NCBI GenBank assembly: GCA_016841525.1
Contig: JAENYZ010000001.1
Coordinates: 682,001 to 746,000 of the forward strand
Direction of reading: 5' to 3'
DNA: 64,000 nucleotides
From: Anaerolineaceae bacterium
Lineage (GTDB): Bacteria > Chloroflexota > Anaerolineae > Anaerolineales > Anaerolineaceae
Notes under the pieces: model-generated
What the model saw: only the letters and a program-made list of their open reading frames with translations
The model's database searches: none
What the model was told of the DNA's origin: nothing
Position numbers and translations under genes: made by a program
In this document: piece after piece, positions 3,572-15,501 of the stretch
Position numbering within the stretch: the stretch's first letter is position 1
Layout of the letters: every line of letters begins with the position of its first letter

Positions 3572-5467
3572 ATGTCAACTCAAAAAAACAAAAATACTGG
3601 CAATGGAAAAAACCGGACAATTTGGATTATTGGCTGCAGCAGCTTGATAATTATTGGTTTATGCCTGGTATTTTTTGCCCTTTTAGGTGGTTTTGCCAGT
3701 ATAAGAAATATCCTTGGCAGCGCTAACGAGAGTGTGAGTATTGAAGTAAAAACATCCCCAGCCGTAATTAATGTTGGCGATCCATTTAATATCTCTGTGC
3801 TTATTTCGAACAATGGAAATAGAAACCTGACCCTAACAGGTATCCATTTGCCAGATGAAATTGCTGAAATTGCCAGCATAAAAAACGTAAATACCGCTGA
3901 CAAATCAGTAAGACTAGATGGAAGTTCTACAAATTACACTTTGGATTTAATTATTGCCCCAAATGGCAAACAAACCATCGAATTTTTCTTTGATGCAACA
4001 AACCCCGGTGAGGTTAATTCAAATATTGATGTGGTCACTTCAAACGAGACCTCCCAGATTGAATTAACCTTGGCAGTCTCCTCAGAAAACAGCGCAGTTA
4101 TAATGAAGGAAGCAACCCCCACAGCAACGATTGTAAGTGAGATTATCCCCTATAGATCGGTGGTTCAAATTGTTGCCTTGATCGAAATGGATGGTGAAAT
4201 TGCTGAAGGTTGGACGGGCTCAGGCACAATTATTTCTAAAGACGGCTTGATCCTAACCAATGCGCACGTCGTCCTATCAGATCATTATTACCATGTGACA
4301 GACCTGATTGTGGCAATCACAGTAGCCCAGGACGAACCGCCAGTGAAGATGTTTTATGCAGACATTCTACAAGCTGATGCCAACCTGGATCTCGCTGTCA
4401 TCAAAATCCGATCGGATATCGAAGGTGGACCAGCAAATTTCGCTGATTTGGATATTCCTCTCGTTCCTTTGGGTGATTCTCAGTCGCTCGGACTAGGTGA
4501 CGAATTAATTATCATCGGGTATCCGGGTATTGGTGGAGAAACCATTACCCTTACCAGGGGTGAAGTAAGTGGTTTTACATCCCAAGAGGAATATGGCAAC
4601 CGGGCATATATTAAAACCTCAGCGACATTTGCTGGTGGAAACAGCGGGGGATTAGCAGCCTCACAACAAGGAGAAATCATAGGCGTCCCAACCCAATTAG
4701 GGTCTGGAGGTATCAATGTTGATATCGTCGACTGCCGGCGTCTCGCTGACACCAATCGTGATGGCATTATAGATGAAAACGATAATTGTGTTCCAACCGG
4801 CGGCTTTATAAATGCGCTTCGCCCAATAAATTTAGCCATTCCCATGATAGATGCAGCAAAAGCCGGGCAAGTCAATATCGTTGAAAATCGTCCAACCACA
4901 GAGCAAGAGGAATACAAACAAGAAGGAGAAATCGTTCTATTTGATGAATTTAATAATAATTTGAATAATTGGTCTTTAGGTGAATTGCCAGATGCTTACG
5001 TTGAAATTAATAACGGGCAATTAACTATCGATAGTTATATAGATAATTATTTAGTCTATTCAACGCTCCCTGATGTTTATGACAATGTCGGACTTTCGGT
5101 CGATATCTCATTAATTAACCCTGCCTATGATGGTGATTTTGGATTTATCTGTGGTTACCAGGACATTTACAATTTCATTGGCGTTGAAATCAGTGAGGAT
5201 AGTTTTTATACGATCTGGGCATATGAAGATGACCAGTACATATCCTTAGTCGATTGGACCTACACTGATATCATCCCACCAAAAGGACCCTTTGGTTTAA
5301 CAGCTTACTGCGGGTCAGAACTTATCGCTCTGGGCGTGAACGGGATACTCTTAGGGGAAACGGTTTATGAAGATTACCAGCCTGGATTGGTTGGTTTGGT
5401 TTCCGGAACCTTTGAGAATCCAAACCTCAGTGTCGGTTTTGATAATTTTTTAATTATGCGGCCATAA
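3572..5467 (+). CDS. Membrane-anchored trypsin-like serine protease with C-terminal lectin-like domain
   Basis: 631 residues. A short basic N-terminus and one membrane helix (about 15-42) place the rest outside the cell. Residues about 55-170 look like an Ig-like/CARDB-type beta domain. A trypsin-like protease follows at about 195-430, with the full triad visible: His232 in LTNAHVV, Asp273 in NLDLAVI and Ser358 in GGNSGG, as in the HtrA/DegP group, but no PDZ domain follows. A calcium-loop-like segment (DTNRDGIIDENDN) interrupts the domain just after the active serine region. A concanavalin-like domain (about 450-631) matches that of the upstream lipoprotein. It probably cleaves exported or surface proteins. 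The gene lies 123 bp after its neighbour and ends in a terminator hairpin. Confidence 0.8.
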   Translation: MSTQKNKNTGNGKNRTIWIIGCSSLIIIGLCLVFFALLGGFASIRNILGSANESVSIEVKTSPAVINVGDPFNISVLISNNGNRNLTLTGIHLPDEIAEIASIKNVNTADKSVRLDGSSTNYTLDLIIAPNGKQTIEFFFDATNPGEVNSNIDVVTSNETSQIELTLAVSSENSAVIMKEATPTATIVSEIIPYRSVVQIVALIEMDGEIAEGWTGSGTIISKDGLILTNAHVVLSDHYYHVTDLIVAITVAQDEPPVKMFYADILQADANLDLAVIKIRSDIEGGPANFADLDIPLVPLGDSQSLGLGDELIIIGYPGIGGETITLTRGEVSGFTSQEEYGNRAYIKTSATFAGGNSGGLAASQQGEIIGVPTQLGSGGINVDIVDCRRLADTNRDGIIDENDNCVPTGGFINALRPINLAIPMIDAAKAGQVNIVENRPTTEQEEYKQEGEIVLFDEFNNNLNNWSLGELPDAYVEINNGQLTIDSYIDNYLVYSTLPDVYDNVGLSVDISLINPAYDGDFGFICGYQDIYNFIGVEISEDSFYTIWAYEDDQYISLVDWTYTDIIPPKGPFGLTAYCGSELIALGVNGILLGETVYEDYQPGLVGLVSGTFENPNLSVGFDNFLIMRP

Positions 5468-5490
5468 TAATATTTTGACATATTCACACA

Positions 5491-5535
5491 AAAGGGTTGG
5501 TTAATACTATTAAACTATCCAACCCTTTCATTTAA
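5491..5535 (+). terminator. Terminator hairpin after the protease gene
   Basis: AAAGGGTTGG pairs perfectly with CCAACCCTTT around an 18-base loop, 24 bases after the stop, followed by a short T-rich tail. Confidence 0.75.
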
Positions 5536-5761
5536 TCAATCATCAACAAAATCACTTGATTCCCCCTCAATTCTTAAATACCTGAAATCCCCATCTCGAA
5601 CCCGTCAGATGATTACCCTGTTGTTCATTGTTTTCCCCAGTGCATATTCAATTGAAAGGGGCTAAAAAAACAGGATCTCTGGAGATTTAATAATCAAAAT
5701 CTCATAATAATAATGATAAACTTGTAATAAATAAACCACAATTCTTAAGAAGAAAGCCTTT

Positions 5762-6553
5762 ATGATGAAATCAATTGTTATTACTGGAAGCACACGCGGG
5801 ATTGGCTATGCTATGGCGAAAGCTTTCCTTGAACGGGATTGCTGTGTCATGCTCAATGGGCGCAGCGAGGAGTCCACCCGGGGAGCCCTGGATGCCTTAT
5901 TGCAATTATTCCCTTCTGACCGAATGGCTGGTGCAGCAGCGGATGTTTCGAATTATGAATCTATCAAACATCTTTGGGATGATAGCCTTGAAGCCTTCGG
6001 AAAAATCGACATCTGGATCAACAATGCGGGTATCTCCCATGAACAAGCCACACCCTGGCAGATCCCGGTGAACGAACTCCAATCAGTAATCCAAACGAAT
6101 ATTTTAGGGGAGCTGTATGGGACACGGGTTGCCATGCAGGGTTTCATGTCCCAAGGTTTCGGGGCCCTTTATAACGTGGAGGGAATGGGTGCTGATGGAA
6201 AAACACACGGGGTCAAAGGCTTATCGGTTTATGGGATGACCAAAGCAGGTTTACATTATTTTAACCGCTGCCTTGCCGGAGAGGTGGACCATCCTCACAT
6301 TATCACAGGTGCCCTGCAGCCTGGCATGGTTCTCACGGACATGATCATGGACCGCTATAAAGACCGCCCTGAAGATTGGAAATCAGACCAGAAGGTCCTG
6401 AGGATGATTGCCAGCCCAGTGGACGATGTCGCAGTATGGATGGCTGATAAAATCCTTGAAAACGATAAAAATGGGGTGTATTTCAAATATTCGAATCCAT
6501 GGCGAATGCTTAAAAGAATGGCACGTTCATTTTTCCACAGGAATGTTACCTGA
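5762..6553 (+). CDS. Short-chain dehydrogenase/reductase resembling the chlorophyll(ide) b reductase (NYC1/NOL) group
   Basis: 263 residues, full SDR length. The Rossmann motif TGSTRGIG (about 8-15) and NNAG (near 90) bind NAD(P), and YGMTK holds the catalytic Tyr and Lys. The serine normally about 13 residues before the Tyr is not visible; the stretch instead reads NVEGMGADGKTHG, like the NMxGxGxxG stretch of NYC1/NOL-type SDRs. The substrate is unknown, and a chlorophyll role is not implied. Tandem ATGs at 5762 and 5765 are both possible starts. A decayed copy of its last quarter lies at 9390-9663, on the far side of the next gene, so this locus has been duplicated. Confidence 0.75.
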   Translation: MMKSIVITGSTRGIGYAMAKAFLERDCCVMLNGRSEESTRGALDALLQLFPSDRMAGAAADVSNYESIKHLWDDSLEAFGKIDIWINNAGISHEQATPWQIPVNELQSVIQTNILGELYGTRVAMQGFMSQGFGALYNVEGMGADGKTHGVKGLSVYGMTKAGLHYFNRCLAGEVDHPHIITGALQPGMVLTDMIMDRYKDRPEDWKSDQKVLRMIASPVDDVAVWMADKILENDKNGVYFKYSNPWRMLKRMARSFFHRNVT

Positions 6554-6828
6554 AATTGATCTAATCAATAGCTTCACTGCGTAATATCAGAGCAAAGTTC
6601 CAATCCATCAACACTTGAAAGGTAGCAAAGTATGGCAGCTAACGGGGCCGCCAGTGCAAAACGATCAATGTAAAAAATAAAAAGCTTGGAAGAGTCTCGT
6701 TCTTGTTTGCATCCCCAATGCACAGCCTCCAATAAGGAGTGTAAAACCTTCTTTCTGCAAAGCGACATTAAGGGAAAAATACTGCATGTAACCCAACTAT
6801 CACAATTATTCTCCATGTTATCAGTTTT

Positions 6829-6856
6829 TTCTCGTTGGTGATAACACCAACGAGAA
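6829..6856. repeat. Palindrome, GGTG/CACC hairpin family (ATAA loop)
   Basis: A perfect 12-bp stem TTCTCGTTGGTG / CACCAACGAGAA around ATAA. The inner end GGTG/CACC matches the palindromes at 24975, 46218 and 49620, while the outer stem differs but still pairs. Confidence 0.75.
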
Positions 6857-6970
6857 CCTGATACGTTTCTATCTAAAATAAAAATCGAGCAATTAATGAC
6901 ACCAATTTTGGGTCAATATCGGAAAACCACTTTGATTTGCATTTTTTGACCAGCATCGTACCATTTCAAT

Positions 6971-7036
6971 CTCGCTGGTCCTTTCCTTAGAGGAGGCTTT
7001 GTCGCCAGAAGCCTGCATACTTAGCACACCAGCGAG
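6971..7036. repeat. Interrupted inverted repeat (CTCGCTGG ... CCAGCGAG)
   Basis: Eight-base arms at 6971-6978 and 7029-7036 with about 50 bases between. The arms resemble the outer part of the palindrome at 6829, so this may be a family member split by extra sequence. The rest of 6554-7190 shows no convincing gene. Confidence 0.4.
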
Positions 7037-7196
7037 TTCATGTAGAAAAGTAAAAGTACAGCAAATGTTATCGAGAGTTAAAGTCCCAAAAAGAAAGGTT
7101 CCGATATTTCATGTTAAATCGCCACCTTCGAAAAATTATGCAATCCATAATATGTTTGATCACAGGGCTCTAACTATTGTCATAAAAAAATTTATT

Positions 7197-7225
7197 TTGA
7201 CTTGGTCCGGTACTTATTCTATAAT
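7197..7225 (+). promoter_or_regulatory. Consensus sigma-70-type promoter for the BTRD1 serine hydrolase
   Basis: TTGACT at 7197-7202 and a perfect TATAAT at 7220-7225 are separated by exactly 17 bases. Transcription should begin near 7232, ruling out the upstream ATG-type start at 6999 and leaving a leader of about 200 bases before the GTG at 7440. Confidence 0.75.
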
Positions 7226-7439
7226 TTTAACAAGACAAACTCTACATGCCATTAACGCCTATAAAAACATCCATTTGGCTCAAAACCTCACACATCTTAG
7301 TAATGAATTCTTAATCGGGTCAAATTCTAATTCTCGGTTTCCGGTGAGGTTTATGACATCTCTGGATAATAAAGGCCAATCAATTCCCTTTCCAAGGCAG
7401 CTTAAGCTTCCATCAAGAGACCCAAGAGAGGAAAATTCG

Positions 7440-9386
7440 GTGGATCGAAAATGGTTTACTTGTCTAAGGACCACCCTTATTGTGGTGATCTTTATCGTAT
7501 TGATGGGTTCAATACAGTCTTCTTATGCGCAAGATCCCCAACCGTCACCAAATCCCGACTTTCTTCCAAGAAACAGTCTGCAGGATCCTGTTGCTGCTTT
7601 GGAAGATCTGCCTAACCCAATGATCGAATCTGGACTAATCGGCGAGGCTCTGAGGCCCTTAGCTTTTGAGTTAATTCCCAGAGATGATCGGGACAATTCT
7701 TATCCCACTGACTGGAAAATTTTATACCACCAAACAGCAGAGGATGTGAACAATACAATTAGAGGTTATCGACTGGTAGACATTTATGTGGAGTCCATTT
7801 CTCCTCACATTTTTACCGGAGTATATGTGAAAAATTCGGACTCTTATCAGAAAACCTGGTGGTGGTATTATGGCGTCGACGAAGCTACATTGAACCAGCA
7901 TCTCGAAGACAACAACGCGCGGCTGATTGCTTTGAAAGCTTATGATAACGGTTTGGGTCAAATTCGTTTTACTGCCATTATGATCGAAAATACAGGAAAA
8001 GATGCAACTGCCTGGTGGTGGTATTACAATGCAACCGATGAAGATATTAACACTCTGATCGATAATAACGAAGCCCGTCTGACCCAGATCAATGCTTATG
8101 AGACCGGTGGCAATGTCCGCTATGCAGTCGTCATGGTTGATAACACGGGCGACAATGGCAAAGCCTGGTGGTTGTACTTCAATGCAAATCCATCCACCGT
8201 GTCTACCCTCCTTCAAACAAATAACGCACGGCTGGTGGATATGGACATCGATCCGGATACCGGAAATCTCAACGTCATCATGACCTCCTGTGCATCAGGC
8301 TGCCCTTATTGGTGGTGGTATGTGAACGTTCCAGAGGATCAGCTGCTTCATATCGTGAATCAAAATGGGGCACGCGTGATCGATGTGAATGACCATCCTG
8401 GATGCGGCAGCACCTGCTATGATATCATCCTGATTAACAATTCCAATGCCATTACTACTCGGGTTGGTGAAATGCTACGCTCTGGCACGGACGGCACCAA
8501 GGGGCTGTACCTCGAACGGGTAGATGGGTCTGTGCTTGCCAACCTGATGAATGACACTATATTTGAGCCAGCCAGCACGCTCAAGGTCGGTGTGCATCTG
8601 CACACCATCTTACAGATCAGGGACAACCCAGATGTCAACCACTTAACCCTCATCCCCGCCTATCCACCGTTGATTCCGCCCGATTCTTGCCCGGACGATC
8701 CTGCAGCGGGTACGGAGACAATCTATGATGCTGACAGAAAGATGATGCGGTATTCGGACAACGCAACCACACGTGAGCTGGTCGATTTCTTCAACCAGCT
8801 TGAAGGTCAACCCGACATCAACACCACCATGGCATCGATCGGTATGACGGACTCAAGCATCAACCATGTTTTTGGCTGCGGCGGTCCACCCGCTAACGAA
8901 ACCACACTGGATGACCTGGCAACCCTGTACCGGGGGGTGGTCAATGGCAGCTTGATTGATTCTTATGATCGGGAACTCTTTTTCGTCCAGATGGCAGGCA
9001 CTTACATGTTTAACCAAGAAGGCTGGGACTTTACCCACCTGGTCGACACTGACATCCCGCTTATTATCACCCAAGAAGCACCCACAGGGATGCCGACGAT
9101 GTTGAAAGATGCGTATCAGGATGACATCTTCCTAGCCTACAAGGCTGGCGGTTACGACATCAGCGGTATGTACTACAGATCAATATTTGGCTACGCTGAG
9201 ATTCCTTTCTGCCATGCTGAGGAACCAAACCAGTACGTCTTTGGAATTTTTATTGCTGACGCTACGAATAAAGATAATGCAAACGACACCTTTGATATCA
9301 CCAAAACTGAATTGCTGCGTGAACAGATTCGGGCTGGTCTTGCATCCTGTTTTAACCAAAACTACCTGCCGCTGATTGTTCATTAA
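7440..9386 (+). CDS. Secreted serine hydrolase with BTRD1 (polyglycine-hydrolase-like) repeats and class A beta-lactamase-like domain
   Basis: 648 residues from the GTG at 7440. That start has a purine-rich site (AGAGAGGA) upstream and opens directly on a signal peptide with a long hydrophobic core ending SYAQ; the frame is open back to 6999, but that part lies before the promoter and looks random. After a linker, four to five tandem units of about 50 residues (about 90-300) carry WWWYY or WWLYF signatures and NNARLxxxxAY, the pattern of bacterial tandem repeat domain 1, also found in fungal polyglycine hydrolases. The C-terminal half is a beta-lactamase-like domain with Ser379 and Lys382 in PASTLK and an SDN-like motif (RYSDNATT). 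It probably cuts a peptide or ester bond outside the cell; the substrate is unknown. Confidence 0.75.
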   Translation: MDRKWFTCLRTTLIVVIFIVLMGSIQSSYAQDPQPSPNPDFLPRNSLQDPVAALEDLPNPMIESGLIGEALRPLAFELIPRDDRDNSYPTDWKILYHQTAEDVNNTIRGYRLVDIYVESISPHIFTGVYVKNSDSYQKTWWWYYGVDEATLNQHLEDNNARLIALKAYDNGLGQIRFTAIMIENTGKDATAWWWYYNATDEDINTLIDNNEARLTQINAYETGGNVRYAVVMVDNTGDNGKAWWLYFNANPSTVSTLLQTNNARLVDMDIDPDTGNLNVIMTSCASGCPYWWWYVNVPEDQLLHIVNQNGARVIDVNDHPGCGSTCYDIILINNSNAITTRVGEMLRSGTDGTKGLYLERVDGSVLANLMNDTIFEPASTLKVGVHLHTILQIRDNPDVNHLTLIPAYPPLIPPDSCPDDPAAGTETIYDADRKMMRYSDNATTRELVDFFNQLEGQPDINTTMASIGMTDSSINHVFGCGGPPANETTLDDLATLYRGVVNGSLIDSYDRELFFVQMAGTYMFNQEGWDFTHLVDTDIPLIITQEAPTGMPTMLKDAYQDDIFLAYKAGGYDISGMYYRSIFGYAEIPFCHAEEPNQYVFGIFIADATNKDNANDTFDITKTELLREQIRAGLASCFNQNYLPLIVH

Positions 9387-9389
9387 GCT

Positions 9390-9663
9390 GCTGCCTGAAA
9401 AGAGCTGGACCATCTCCGCGTAATCACAGATGCACTGCAACCTGTCATGGTTCCCAAAGACATGATTACAGATTGTCATCAAGACCAAGCTGATGATTTT
9501 AAATCGGACCAGAAAATCCTGAGTATAATCGCCAACCCGGTCAACACTGTTGCAGTCTGGATGGCGGATAAAATACTTCATTATCAAAAGAATGGGGCTA
9601 ATTATAATGTCTTCAGCACTTTGTGAATCCTCAAAAAATGCTCAGAATGAAAGCCCTCTGAAA
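9390..9663 (+). pseudogene. Decayed copy of the 3' end of the SDR gene
   Basis: Translating this stretch gives residues that line up with the last third of the SDR at 5762-6553: ALQPVMVPKDMI against ALQPGMVLTDMI, then KSDQKILSIIANPV and VAVWMADKIL. Frame breaks lie near 9400 (a missing base and a TGA) and near 9620, after which homology continues as NPQKMLRMKA. Homology begins within a few bases of the stop of the preceding hydrolase gene. It is a non-functional duplicate with no upstream part. Confidence 0.8.
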
Positions 9664-9916
9664 ATCAATTAACCAGCCTCAGACCAAATAAGCTTTACCA
9701 GTATCAGTATAAAATTCGGCAATTTCGAAATTTTTTGGATTATTAAAATTATCTTCGACTTCTCCTGAATAAATCACTGTACCTCTTTCAACGACAGTTA
9801 GATTGTACAAACAATTTCAACCATTGAAATTAAGGGTATATTTGAAATTAGTTGAGAGAAAACAAGTATGATTGTATATCTATTGGAATCTGTCGTATGT
9901 TTATGTGGATTGTTAG
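9664..9916. other. Intergenic region with possible tiny reverse-strand remnant and weak promoter
   Basis: On the minus strand 9679-9815 translates without stops into about 45 residues (VVERGTVIYSGEVED, then AEFYTDTG), faintly like an ABC-transporter ATPase C-terminus, but too short to assign. On the plus strand TTGAGA at 9852 and TATATC at 9875, 17 bases apart, may be the MFS gene promoter. Confidence 0.3.
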
Positions 9917-12219: not shown

Positions 12220-12723
12220 TCAGAAAAGAATTATGGCTCCAACAATCAGTGAAATCAAACTAATGCTAAGAAAAATGATCCCCGCTACCAGCAATTCACC
12301 GGACCCTTTTGCCGAACGCTCAAACACTGCAACTTCCCTCTTTTCAGGATCATAAAAAACCCTGACCGTTGATCCCTCAGTATATTGTCTGATGACCGCT
12401 TTGGCTTTATCCGGTTATGAATAGGAAGTTTTGCCAGCGAAGGATATCCGCTCGGATGTGAAAACCATATCATCTACCTGGTAAGTATAGTCAACCACTG
12501 CAGAATATATGGTATGACTCTGACCATCATCATCGCCTCCAAAAACGCTTTCCCCAACTACAACCTCGGATTTAATGATAGTACCCTTAGTCTCCAGCCA
12601 GGATAGGCTTTTTTTCGCTTTTTTCTTATTCTTTTGCTGCAATAAAATTAACAAAATCCCAATTCCGGAAAATAATATGAAAAACGAAACGGTTAATAAA
12701 ATAGTTAATGTATTTGTTTCCAT
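12220..12723 (-). pseudogene. DUF3592-type membrane protein gene interrupted by an in-frame TAA
   Basis: Paralogue of the gene at 1-445. The frame from the ATG at 12723 is stopped after 102 codons by a TAA at 12415-12417. The same frame then continues with recognisable family sequence (VRVFYDPEKREVAVFERSAKG and a second membrane helix) to a TGA at 12220-12222, 167 codons in all if the stop is read through. The intact paralogue has TCT AAA where this copy has TCA TAA, so one A-to-T change explains the loss. The N-terminal helix, GGDDD loop and VDYTYQVDD are intact, so a truncated membrane protein could still be made. The break could also be a sequencing error. Confidence 0.8.
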
Positions 12724-14094: not shown

Positions 14095-15501
14095 TCAGTA
14101 TCGTTTCACAATCACAGTTGTGAAGTCATCCTGGTGGGGAATTTCTTTATTAAAGTCCTCTACTGCCGTCCAAAGATTTTTACAAATGGTTTTTGCATTT
14201 TCTTGACGATTAGCGACCAAGAGTTCTTTGACACGCTCAATTCCGAAAGCATGACCGGATGGGTCAAACGCCTCATACAAGCCATCACTGAAAAATAACA
14301 CCAATCCACCGTGGGGTATGGTACACTGCTGTTGATCAAGAATTAAATTATCAAATATTCCCAGTGACTTACCGGTCGTAACGGGCAAATCGATGATCTT
14401 TCCATTCTTTTTTACCAGAATCGGCGGTAGGTGACCAGCTCGAGAATAATCCAGGGTACCATTTTTCAAATCGAGTATGCAGTACAGTAAGGTAACAAAC
14501 ATGTTCGCGTTCATCTTAAGAAAAAACTTGTTTATATTTTCTAATATTTTTCGCTGATCATTGTTCCGACCTGTTTCTACTCTTGTCAAACTTAGTGTAA
14601 TTGCCATAAATAACGCAGCAGGTAAGCCTTTATCCGAAACATCCCCTATGACAATACAAACACGTTGATCATCCAAAGGGATAAAATCATAGAAGTCTCC
14701 CCCAACCGCTCTTGCAGGAATAATCAATGAGCCAAAATCATAACCCGGATATCTTGGCGGATGAGTTGGCAGAATACTCTTCTGTGCCTGGAGAGCCAAT
14801 GCCATTTCACTTTCCACCTGGTTGAACATGCGCTGTGTCTCATTAAATAGACGAGCATTTTCCAGCGATTGGCTCATGCTGTTAGTTAAAGTGGTTAACA
14901 GGTCAATATCAGATTTGGAAAATGCATTTTCAATATCCAAATTCTGTAAACTTACAATCCCTCTAGCCACGTTTCCTACAAGTAATGGCACTCCCAACCA
15001 TGTTTTCGGCACCTCTGTACCCGGAACGACCTTCATTTTTTCGGTTTCAAGCAGATCAAGAATTTCCTGTGCATTAATCATCACCGGCTTTTTCGTACGG
15101 ACAACCTTCGCCCGGGATGCGTCAATAGGGGCCCATCCCGGGATATGAAGGTGTTGTCCCCGCTCAATCGCATAATGATGAAATACCCTGTCGGTATGGG
15201 CATCATATTGAGAAATCATCACAATCTGCGCGTTGAAAGTATCGCGAAGCTTATCCCCAACCAGATCGTAAATCGCTTGCATCTCATATTTTGAAGATAA
15301 ACCCTCTTGAACGCTGTTGATCAAAGCTAATTCAACAGACCTTTGTTCTAAACATTGCTCCAAATATTCTGCAGCTTCCTCCCAATTGCCTTGCGCCTTA
15401 GCTTTCATCACCAATGAAATATAATCCTGGGGTAGATAATCTTCTCTTGGGATTTCCTTGGATTTGGTAATTCTTTCAGTGCGTTCTATTTCAGAAGTCA
15501 T
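14095..15501 (-). CDS. GAF-domain PP2C-type serine phosphatase (RsbU/SpoIIE-like)
   Basis: 468 residues from the ATG at 15501, chosen because GGGAAGAAGGA lies just before it; an ATG eight codons upstream overlaps that site. A helical N-terminus (about 1-60) precedes a GAF sensor domain (about 62-215), then a linking helix and a PP2C/SpoIIE phosphatase domain (about 235-468). Metal-binding motifs are visible: AVGGDFYDF, GDVSDKGLPAALFMA, AGHLPP, FSDGLYEA and QDDFTTV. Such proteins dephosphorylate anti-sigma-factor antagonists in partner-switching pathways in response to a GAF-sensed signal. No anti-sigma or antagonist gene is adjacent, so the partner is elsewhere. The gene stands between two comM fragments. 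Confidence 0.85.
   Translation of the reverse strand: MTSEIERTERITKSKEIPREDYLPQDYISLVMKAKAQGNWEEAAEYLEQCLEQRSVELALINSVQEGLSSKYEMQAIYDLVGDKLRDTFNAQIVMISQYDAHTDRVFHHYAIERGQHLHIPGWAPIDASRAKVVRTKKPVMINAQEILDLLETEKMKVVPGTEVPKTWLGVPLLVGNVARGIVSLQNLDIENAFSKSDIDLLTTLTNSMSQSLENARLFNETQRMFNQVESEMALALQAQKSILPTHPPRYPGYDFGSLIIPARAVGGDFYDFIPLDDQRVCIVIGDVSDKGLPAALFMAITLSLTRVETGRNNDQRKILENINKFFLKMNANMFVTLLYCILDLKNGTLDYSRAGHLPPILVKKNGKIIDLPVTTGKSLGIFDNLILDQQQCTIPHGGLVLFFSDGLYEAFDPSGHAFGIERVKELLVANRQENAKTICKNLWTAVEDFNKEIPHQDDFTTVIVKRY

Follow-up and report, generated by a model that had tools for sequence, protein, structure and literature searches.

How did a hydrolase gene come to lie between an intact short-chain dehydrogenase/reductase (SDR) gene and a second piece of SDR sequence? 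This question is raised by a locus of an Anaerolineaceae bacterium, which we studied in a window comprising the whole stretch of 64,000 nucleotides analysed (G000:C5:682001-746000, where G000 is the bacterium's own genome). Positions are counted from the first base of the window, and the features of the locus are collected in Table 1.

Table 1. Features of the SDR-hydrolase locus, in window positions
Feature	Position	Strand	Remarks
Intact SDR gene	5762..6553	+	263 aa; PF00106 E 3.2e-34
Spacer	6554..7439		no gene identified; self-complementary stretch 6829-6856; promoter-like site 7197-7225
Secreted-type serine hydrolase gene	7440..9386	+	BTRD1-like repeats and Beta-lactamase2 domain; ends YLPLIVH
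SDR pseudogene remnant, secure part	9401..9597	+	follows SDR codons 174-238 in order, without indels
Possible remnant continuation	9598..9663	+	indistinguishable from chance; TGA 9624-9626 against an SDR arginine codon

The 3' part of the SDR gene is repeated behind the hydrolase gene

An earlier note on this DNA had read the first gene as an SDR, and its Pfam match bears this out; the gene is intact (Table 1). The protein carries TGSTRGIG, NNAG and YGMTK stretches, which we take to be SDR motifs, and among the matches listed its orthologue-like genes are those of G011 (72% amino acid identity) and G013 (54%). When the whole of the own genome was searched with the SDR protein, the gene itself (E 2.5e-182) was followed by the tail behind the hydrolase gene (E 6.1e-21) and by a next match at E 2.4e-9. 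Positions 6280-6476 of the SDR gene and 9401-9597 are identical at 147 of 197 bases (75%), ungapped and on the same strand. The local score of this repeat was 145, while the maximum in 500 dinucleotide shuffles of 9387-9663 was 31, and none of the shuffles came near it. No gap interrupts the match of SDR codons 174-238 to 9402-9596, and amino acid identity to the own SDR is 53%. Thus the hydrolase gene is indeed bracketed by SDR sequence in direct orientation, as had been described.

The earlier note had drawn the copy from 9390 to 9663, as the last third of the SDR gene, and had called it frameshifted. The core at 9401-9597 stands, but neither of these ends is supported and the frameshift is not needed: the secure part lies in a single frame that is open from 9399 to 9623, after TGA 9396-9398 and up to TGA 9624-9626, and this is also the frame of the hydrolase gene. 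Gaps, and hence a frameshift, are required only in flanking stretches that match no better than chance. On the 5' side, a gapped alignment moves the start back to 9387 for a gain of one score unit, and in a separate homology test (9341-9401) 71 of 1000 shuffles scored at least as high. On the 3' side, 745 of 1000 shuffles did so in a test from 9598, and 703 of 1000 in a test from 9627. Over codons 239-247, 11 of 27 bases agree with the own SDR and 15 of 27 with that of G011; because of this poor match, 9598-9626 is assigned to the remnant by colinearity only. The secure part begins 14 bases past the hydrolase stop, so the copy does start close behind that stop, with 9390 and 9663 as possible ends. 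Nothing resembling codons 1-173 of a second SDR copy was found in the window.

Further sequence matches were observed for parts of the window. Positions 3-527 are 91% identical to G006:C39:22423-22944, against 65-79% for the other matches in other genomes of the genus, and hold a minus-strand frame (2-445) that by eye resembles the frame at 12415-12723. Positions 14104-15430 have a paralogue of 78% nucleotide identity outside the window (G000:C5:764652-765990), and 1991-2182 have an 80% match at C5:770213-770401.

The hydrolase gene probably keeps its own end and appears lineage-restricted

The hydrolase frame is open from 6999 to its stop at 9386, with the probable start at a GTG at about 7440. 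Its protein joins BTRD1-like WWWYY repeats to a Beta-lactamase2 domain (PF13354, E 2.7e-9), matches PF17660 ('Polyglycine hydrolase-like, structural repeat') weakly (E 2.7e-7), and shows by eye STLK, SDN and KAG stretches, which we assume to be motifs; the nearest solved chain by sequence is TLL2115 (E 1.6e-4). LPL-type C-termini were found in four of the six BTRD1/hydrolase relatives that were read (FLPLIIR in G1019, FLPVVVR in G193, YLPFVLNQ in G293 and YLPLLVR in G286) and not in the G174 and G864 proteins. Since the YLPLIVH of the window protein resembles these ends, the C-terminal end is probably native and the gene probably complete, so that hydrolase and SDR remnant would meet between 9387 and 9401. 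We also considered that the hydrolase had been truncated by SDR sequence or borrowed its stop from it; this is unlikely, given the LPL-type ends of four of these six relatives and the non-significant 5' extension of the homology.

With the own genome counted, the hydrolase is present in one of 41 relatives, in one of 147 genomes of the family and in four of 400 of the phylum, the other three being G1019 (E 6e-112; 36-40% identical), G864 (E 7e-74; 33-38%) and, as a weak match, G834 (E 7e-6). PF17660 occurs in five of 298 class genomes, the own included, and a further search of genome contigs returned no hydrolase relative. We regard the gene as lineage-restricted.

The promoter that had been described as consensus was confirmed as a promoter-like TTGACT-17-TATAAT in the spacer, with 11 of 12 positions matching; a scan of the region gave 17 sites, against 10.4 ± 3.2 in shuffles. 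The spacer also contains a 28-base stretch that is 93% self-complementary (6829-6856), between the SDR and the hydrolase gene. The minus-strand ORF 6574-6816 had no match in Pfam or PHROG, and a sub-threshold PF10322 match in the antisense ORF 7722-8216 (E 0.0039) was taken as chance. Two further candidates were set aside: the spacer as a mobile element, as it is not clearly repeated elsewhere in the own genome, where the best match was the palindrome itself (E 3.7e-4) and all others had E of at least 0.03; and tRNA-linked integration, as the window holds no tRNA.

The order SDR, spacer, hydrolase and SDR 3' end would also result from a partial tandem duplication of the SDR 3' end together with the spacer and the hydrolase gene, if the second spacer and hydrolase were then lost. 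However, no copy of either was found behind the tail, where 9664-9916 scored no better than shuffles (scores reached by 282 and 173 of 300), and we consider this course of events improbable.

The repeat appears to be a dead fragment of an old second SDR copy

Homologous to the SDR gene and colinear with it, the remnant lacks codons 1-173, within which the cofactor and active-site motifs presumably fall. Moreover, among the 11 positions of codons 174-247 that are invariant in the six SDRs compared, four are changed in it (183, 188, 192 and 234). On these two grounds we call it dead, in agreement with the earlier reading of the piece as the dead tail of a duplicate. In a protein tree of 47 rows, the tail has a branch of 0.88 and the own SDR one of 0.097; the best match of the tail among the other 46 rows is the own SDR (53%), followed by the G011 SDR (47%), and tail and own SDR are sisters with support of 99/70. 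Homology beyond chance (9401-9597), truncation with disabling lesions and moderately relaxed constraint all point to a pseudogene. A functional small ORF in the tail was rejected, since in addition to the missing codons and changed residues the frame has no ATG, GTG or TTG at its head and Pfam returned nothing for the tail at E 0.01. As judged from these features, 9401-9597 is a dead fragment, of about 70 codons, of an old second SDR copy, and is probably without function today.

To describe age and constraint we used pairwise codon likelihood. Over the 65 secure codons, omega was 0.34 and t 0.68 between the own SDR and the tail, and 0.18 and 0.93 between the own and the G011 SDR; over 74 codons the values were 0.32 and 0.89, and 0.18 and 0.94. 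The own-G011 pair gave 0.11 and 1.67 over 259 codons. These estimates supersede a Nei-Gojobori comparison of the own SDR and the tail (dS 1.09, omega 0.25, 73 codons), which ignores transition bias. The 74-codon likelihood, like the distance test and the 75-codon topology below, took in eight or nine codons of doubtful homology beyond 9597, and the 65-codon likelihood and topology runs leave them out.

The dead fraction of the tail's history was then fitted with the own branch fixed at a functional omega of 0.106 or 0.177. Among the fractions tried, the best fit over 65 codons (lnL -415.1) was a tail that had been dead during 25-50% of its history. A tail dead from birth gave -416.25 and -416.62, which is 1.1-1.5 below the best (1.6-2.0 with 74 codons), and a tail never dead gave -419.2 and -416.3, which is 1.2-4.1 below. 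These values indicate some period of death and weakly favour a second copy that worked and then died over one dead from birth; the reruns without the codons past 9597 slightly lower our confidence in a once-working copy. If the tail has been dead for at least a quarter of its history, neutral change would amount to about 0.25-0.45 per site per branch, while the split from the congener G011, for comparison, corresponds to about 0.46 neutral changes per site. At 75% nucleotide and 53% amino acid identity, the duplication would thus be an old event, about as old as the species split, and not a fresh one.

The same fits bear on another origin of the repeat, in which the hydrolase insertion, as a Campbell-type or insertion-duplication event, copied the SDR 3' end so that the tail was dead from birth. 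Such an event predicts the layout seen here, with an intact gene, an insert and then a 3' end in direct orientation; the secure part begins 14 bases behind the hydrolase stop, and over the secure codons the cost in likelihood is small (1.1-1.5 lnL). However, the fit is worse than that of a partly dead history in both the 65- and the 74-codon run, the three other ORFs of at least 80 aa between 6554 and 9587 gave no recombinase match in Pfam or PHROG, and the spacer is not clearly repeated in the own genome. An ordinary target-site duplication is, moreover, far shorter than a repeat of about 200 bases. We regard such an insertion as less likely, and a particular form of it, in which the hydrolase belongs to a recombinase-less cassette that enters gene 3' ends by copying them and leaves the target whole with the displaced tail as its far border, as hardly credible. 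The earlier note had left tandem duplication and target-end-copying insertion side by side; the data lean weakly to the former, as an old duplication.

AU tests did not separate the three possible branching orders of own+tail, own+G011 and tail+G011 (p 0.18-0.77). With 75 codons, p for the three orders was 0.335, 0.74 and 0.20 at all sites, 0.495, 0.544 and 0.386 at codon positions 1 and 2, and 0.70, 0.373 and 0.291 for protein; with 65 codons it was 0.557, 0.544 and 0.182 for DNA and 0.771, 0.230 and 0.232 for protein. In a four-point distance test own+tail received a bootstrap of 31%, at odds with the support in the protein tree. With the orders unseparated, the tail might also be a xenologue brought in together with the hydrolase from a different bacterium, a reading with which the restricted distribution of the hydrolase agrees, as do T196, I215 and N218, common to the tail and the G013 SDR against the own and G011 SDRs. 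On the other hand, M194, K207 and V220 are common to the tail and the own SDR against G011 and G013, the own SDR is the best match of the tail, and neither G1019 nor G864 has an SDR of this kind beside its hydrolase (the SDR about 2.4 kb from the G1019 hydrolase is a different one, 22% identical). Foreign origin of the tail thus seems to us a poor prospect. The earlier note had named hydrolase-bearing relatives without a duplicated SDR end as evidence against its reading; G1019 and G864 are such relatives, but at 33-40% identity their divergence is too great for them to disprove a local duplication.

SDR loci of relatives

An intact tandem SDR pair, which the earlier note had suggested looking for, was not found nearby in any of 400 sampled genomes of the order at E ≤ 1e-50, a search in which at most the six best candidates per genome were scored and the cut-off would hide tails. 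At this threshold the SDR is present in 47 of the 400, with two matches in one genome, G468, where they lie on separate contigs. A pair of distantly related genes does exist: in L134, a Rhodospirillaceae MAG, SDRs of this kind (36-37% amino acid identity) stand in tandem at 5001-5768 and 5824-6612. Three such genes lie side by side at L134 4079-6612, the third on the other strand. Within the genus, a close SDR was seen in three of 16 genomes (own, G011 and G013), among the matches listed.

A separate tail fragment beside the SDR was sought in 34 SDR loci, which represent 33 distinct contigs (10 loci belong to the order and 24 are among 34 named loci, one contig being in both), and in seven SDR neighbourhoods (L069, L070 and L072-L076). 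In the 34 loci there was none, the tail matching only inside the SDR gene, and the hydrolase was absent from all seven neighbourhoods. The gene for an MFS protein downstream has an orthologue-like match in G013 (80% amino acid identity, among the matches listed), about 123 kb from the G013 SDR; the MFS and trypsin searches covered 17 genomes each, G011-G015 being left out. Comparison with relatives lacking the hydrolase, as had been proposed, was thus possible in part: these genomes keep the SDR in other neighbourhoods, and because the neighbourhood is not conserved no empty site was found.

Duplication, decay and replacement as the proposed origin of the locus

With confidence that is about evenly balanced, we propose that a second SDR copy once worked and decayed, and that the hydrolase took the place of its lost part. 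The SDR gene would have been duplicated, most simply in tandem, which is plausible given the tandem SDRs of this kind in L134. The second copy may have been functional for a while before it lost its 5' two-thirds and decayed, with 9401-9597 (perhaps to 9663) as the leftover 3' part. Either an insertion or a rearrangement, with its breakpoint between 9387 and 9401, would have brought the hydrolase gene into the vacated place. Counted against this proposal are the lack of a nearby pair in the 400 order genomes at E ≤ 1e-50, of any other tail fragment in the 33 distinct SDR loci and of any trace of codons 1-173 in the window, the branching-order tests that do not separate, a functional period that depends on 1.1-1.5 lnL, and the differing ends of the G174 and G864 hydrolases.

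Annotators should label the remnant a pseudogene, and neither an ORF nor a part of the hydrolase gene; beyond annotation the locus has little importance. It would be a single instance in which a hydrolase gene of secreted type and restricted distribution settled where a redundant gene decayed.

The hydrolase, as distinct from the repeat, resembles the polyglycine hydrolases (fungal CMPs; PMC9912923), which have the same PF17660 repeats before a beta-lactamase-like domain. That C-domain is likened in PMC9912923 to class C beta-lactamases, whereas the domain of the window protein is Beta-lactamase2 (PF13354). For the repeat, the closer comparison is with bacterial pseudogene remnants left after gene duplication, with which it shares truncation, colinearity, a long branch, an in-frame stop and changed conserved residues. 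Read in this way, the locus appears to be an ordinary case of bacterial gene duplication and decay, differing from the usual remnants in that the truncated end adjoins a lineage-restricted gene.
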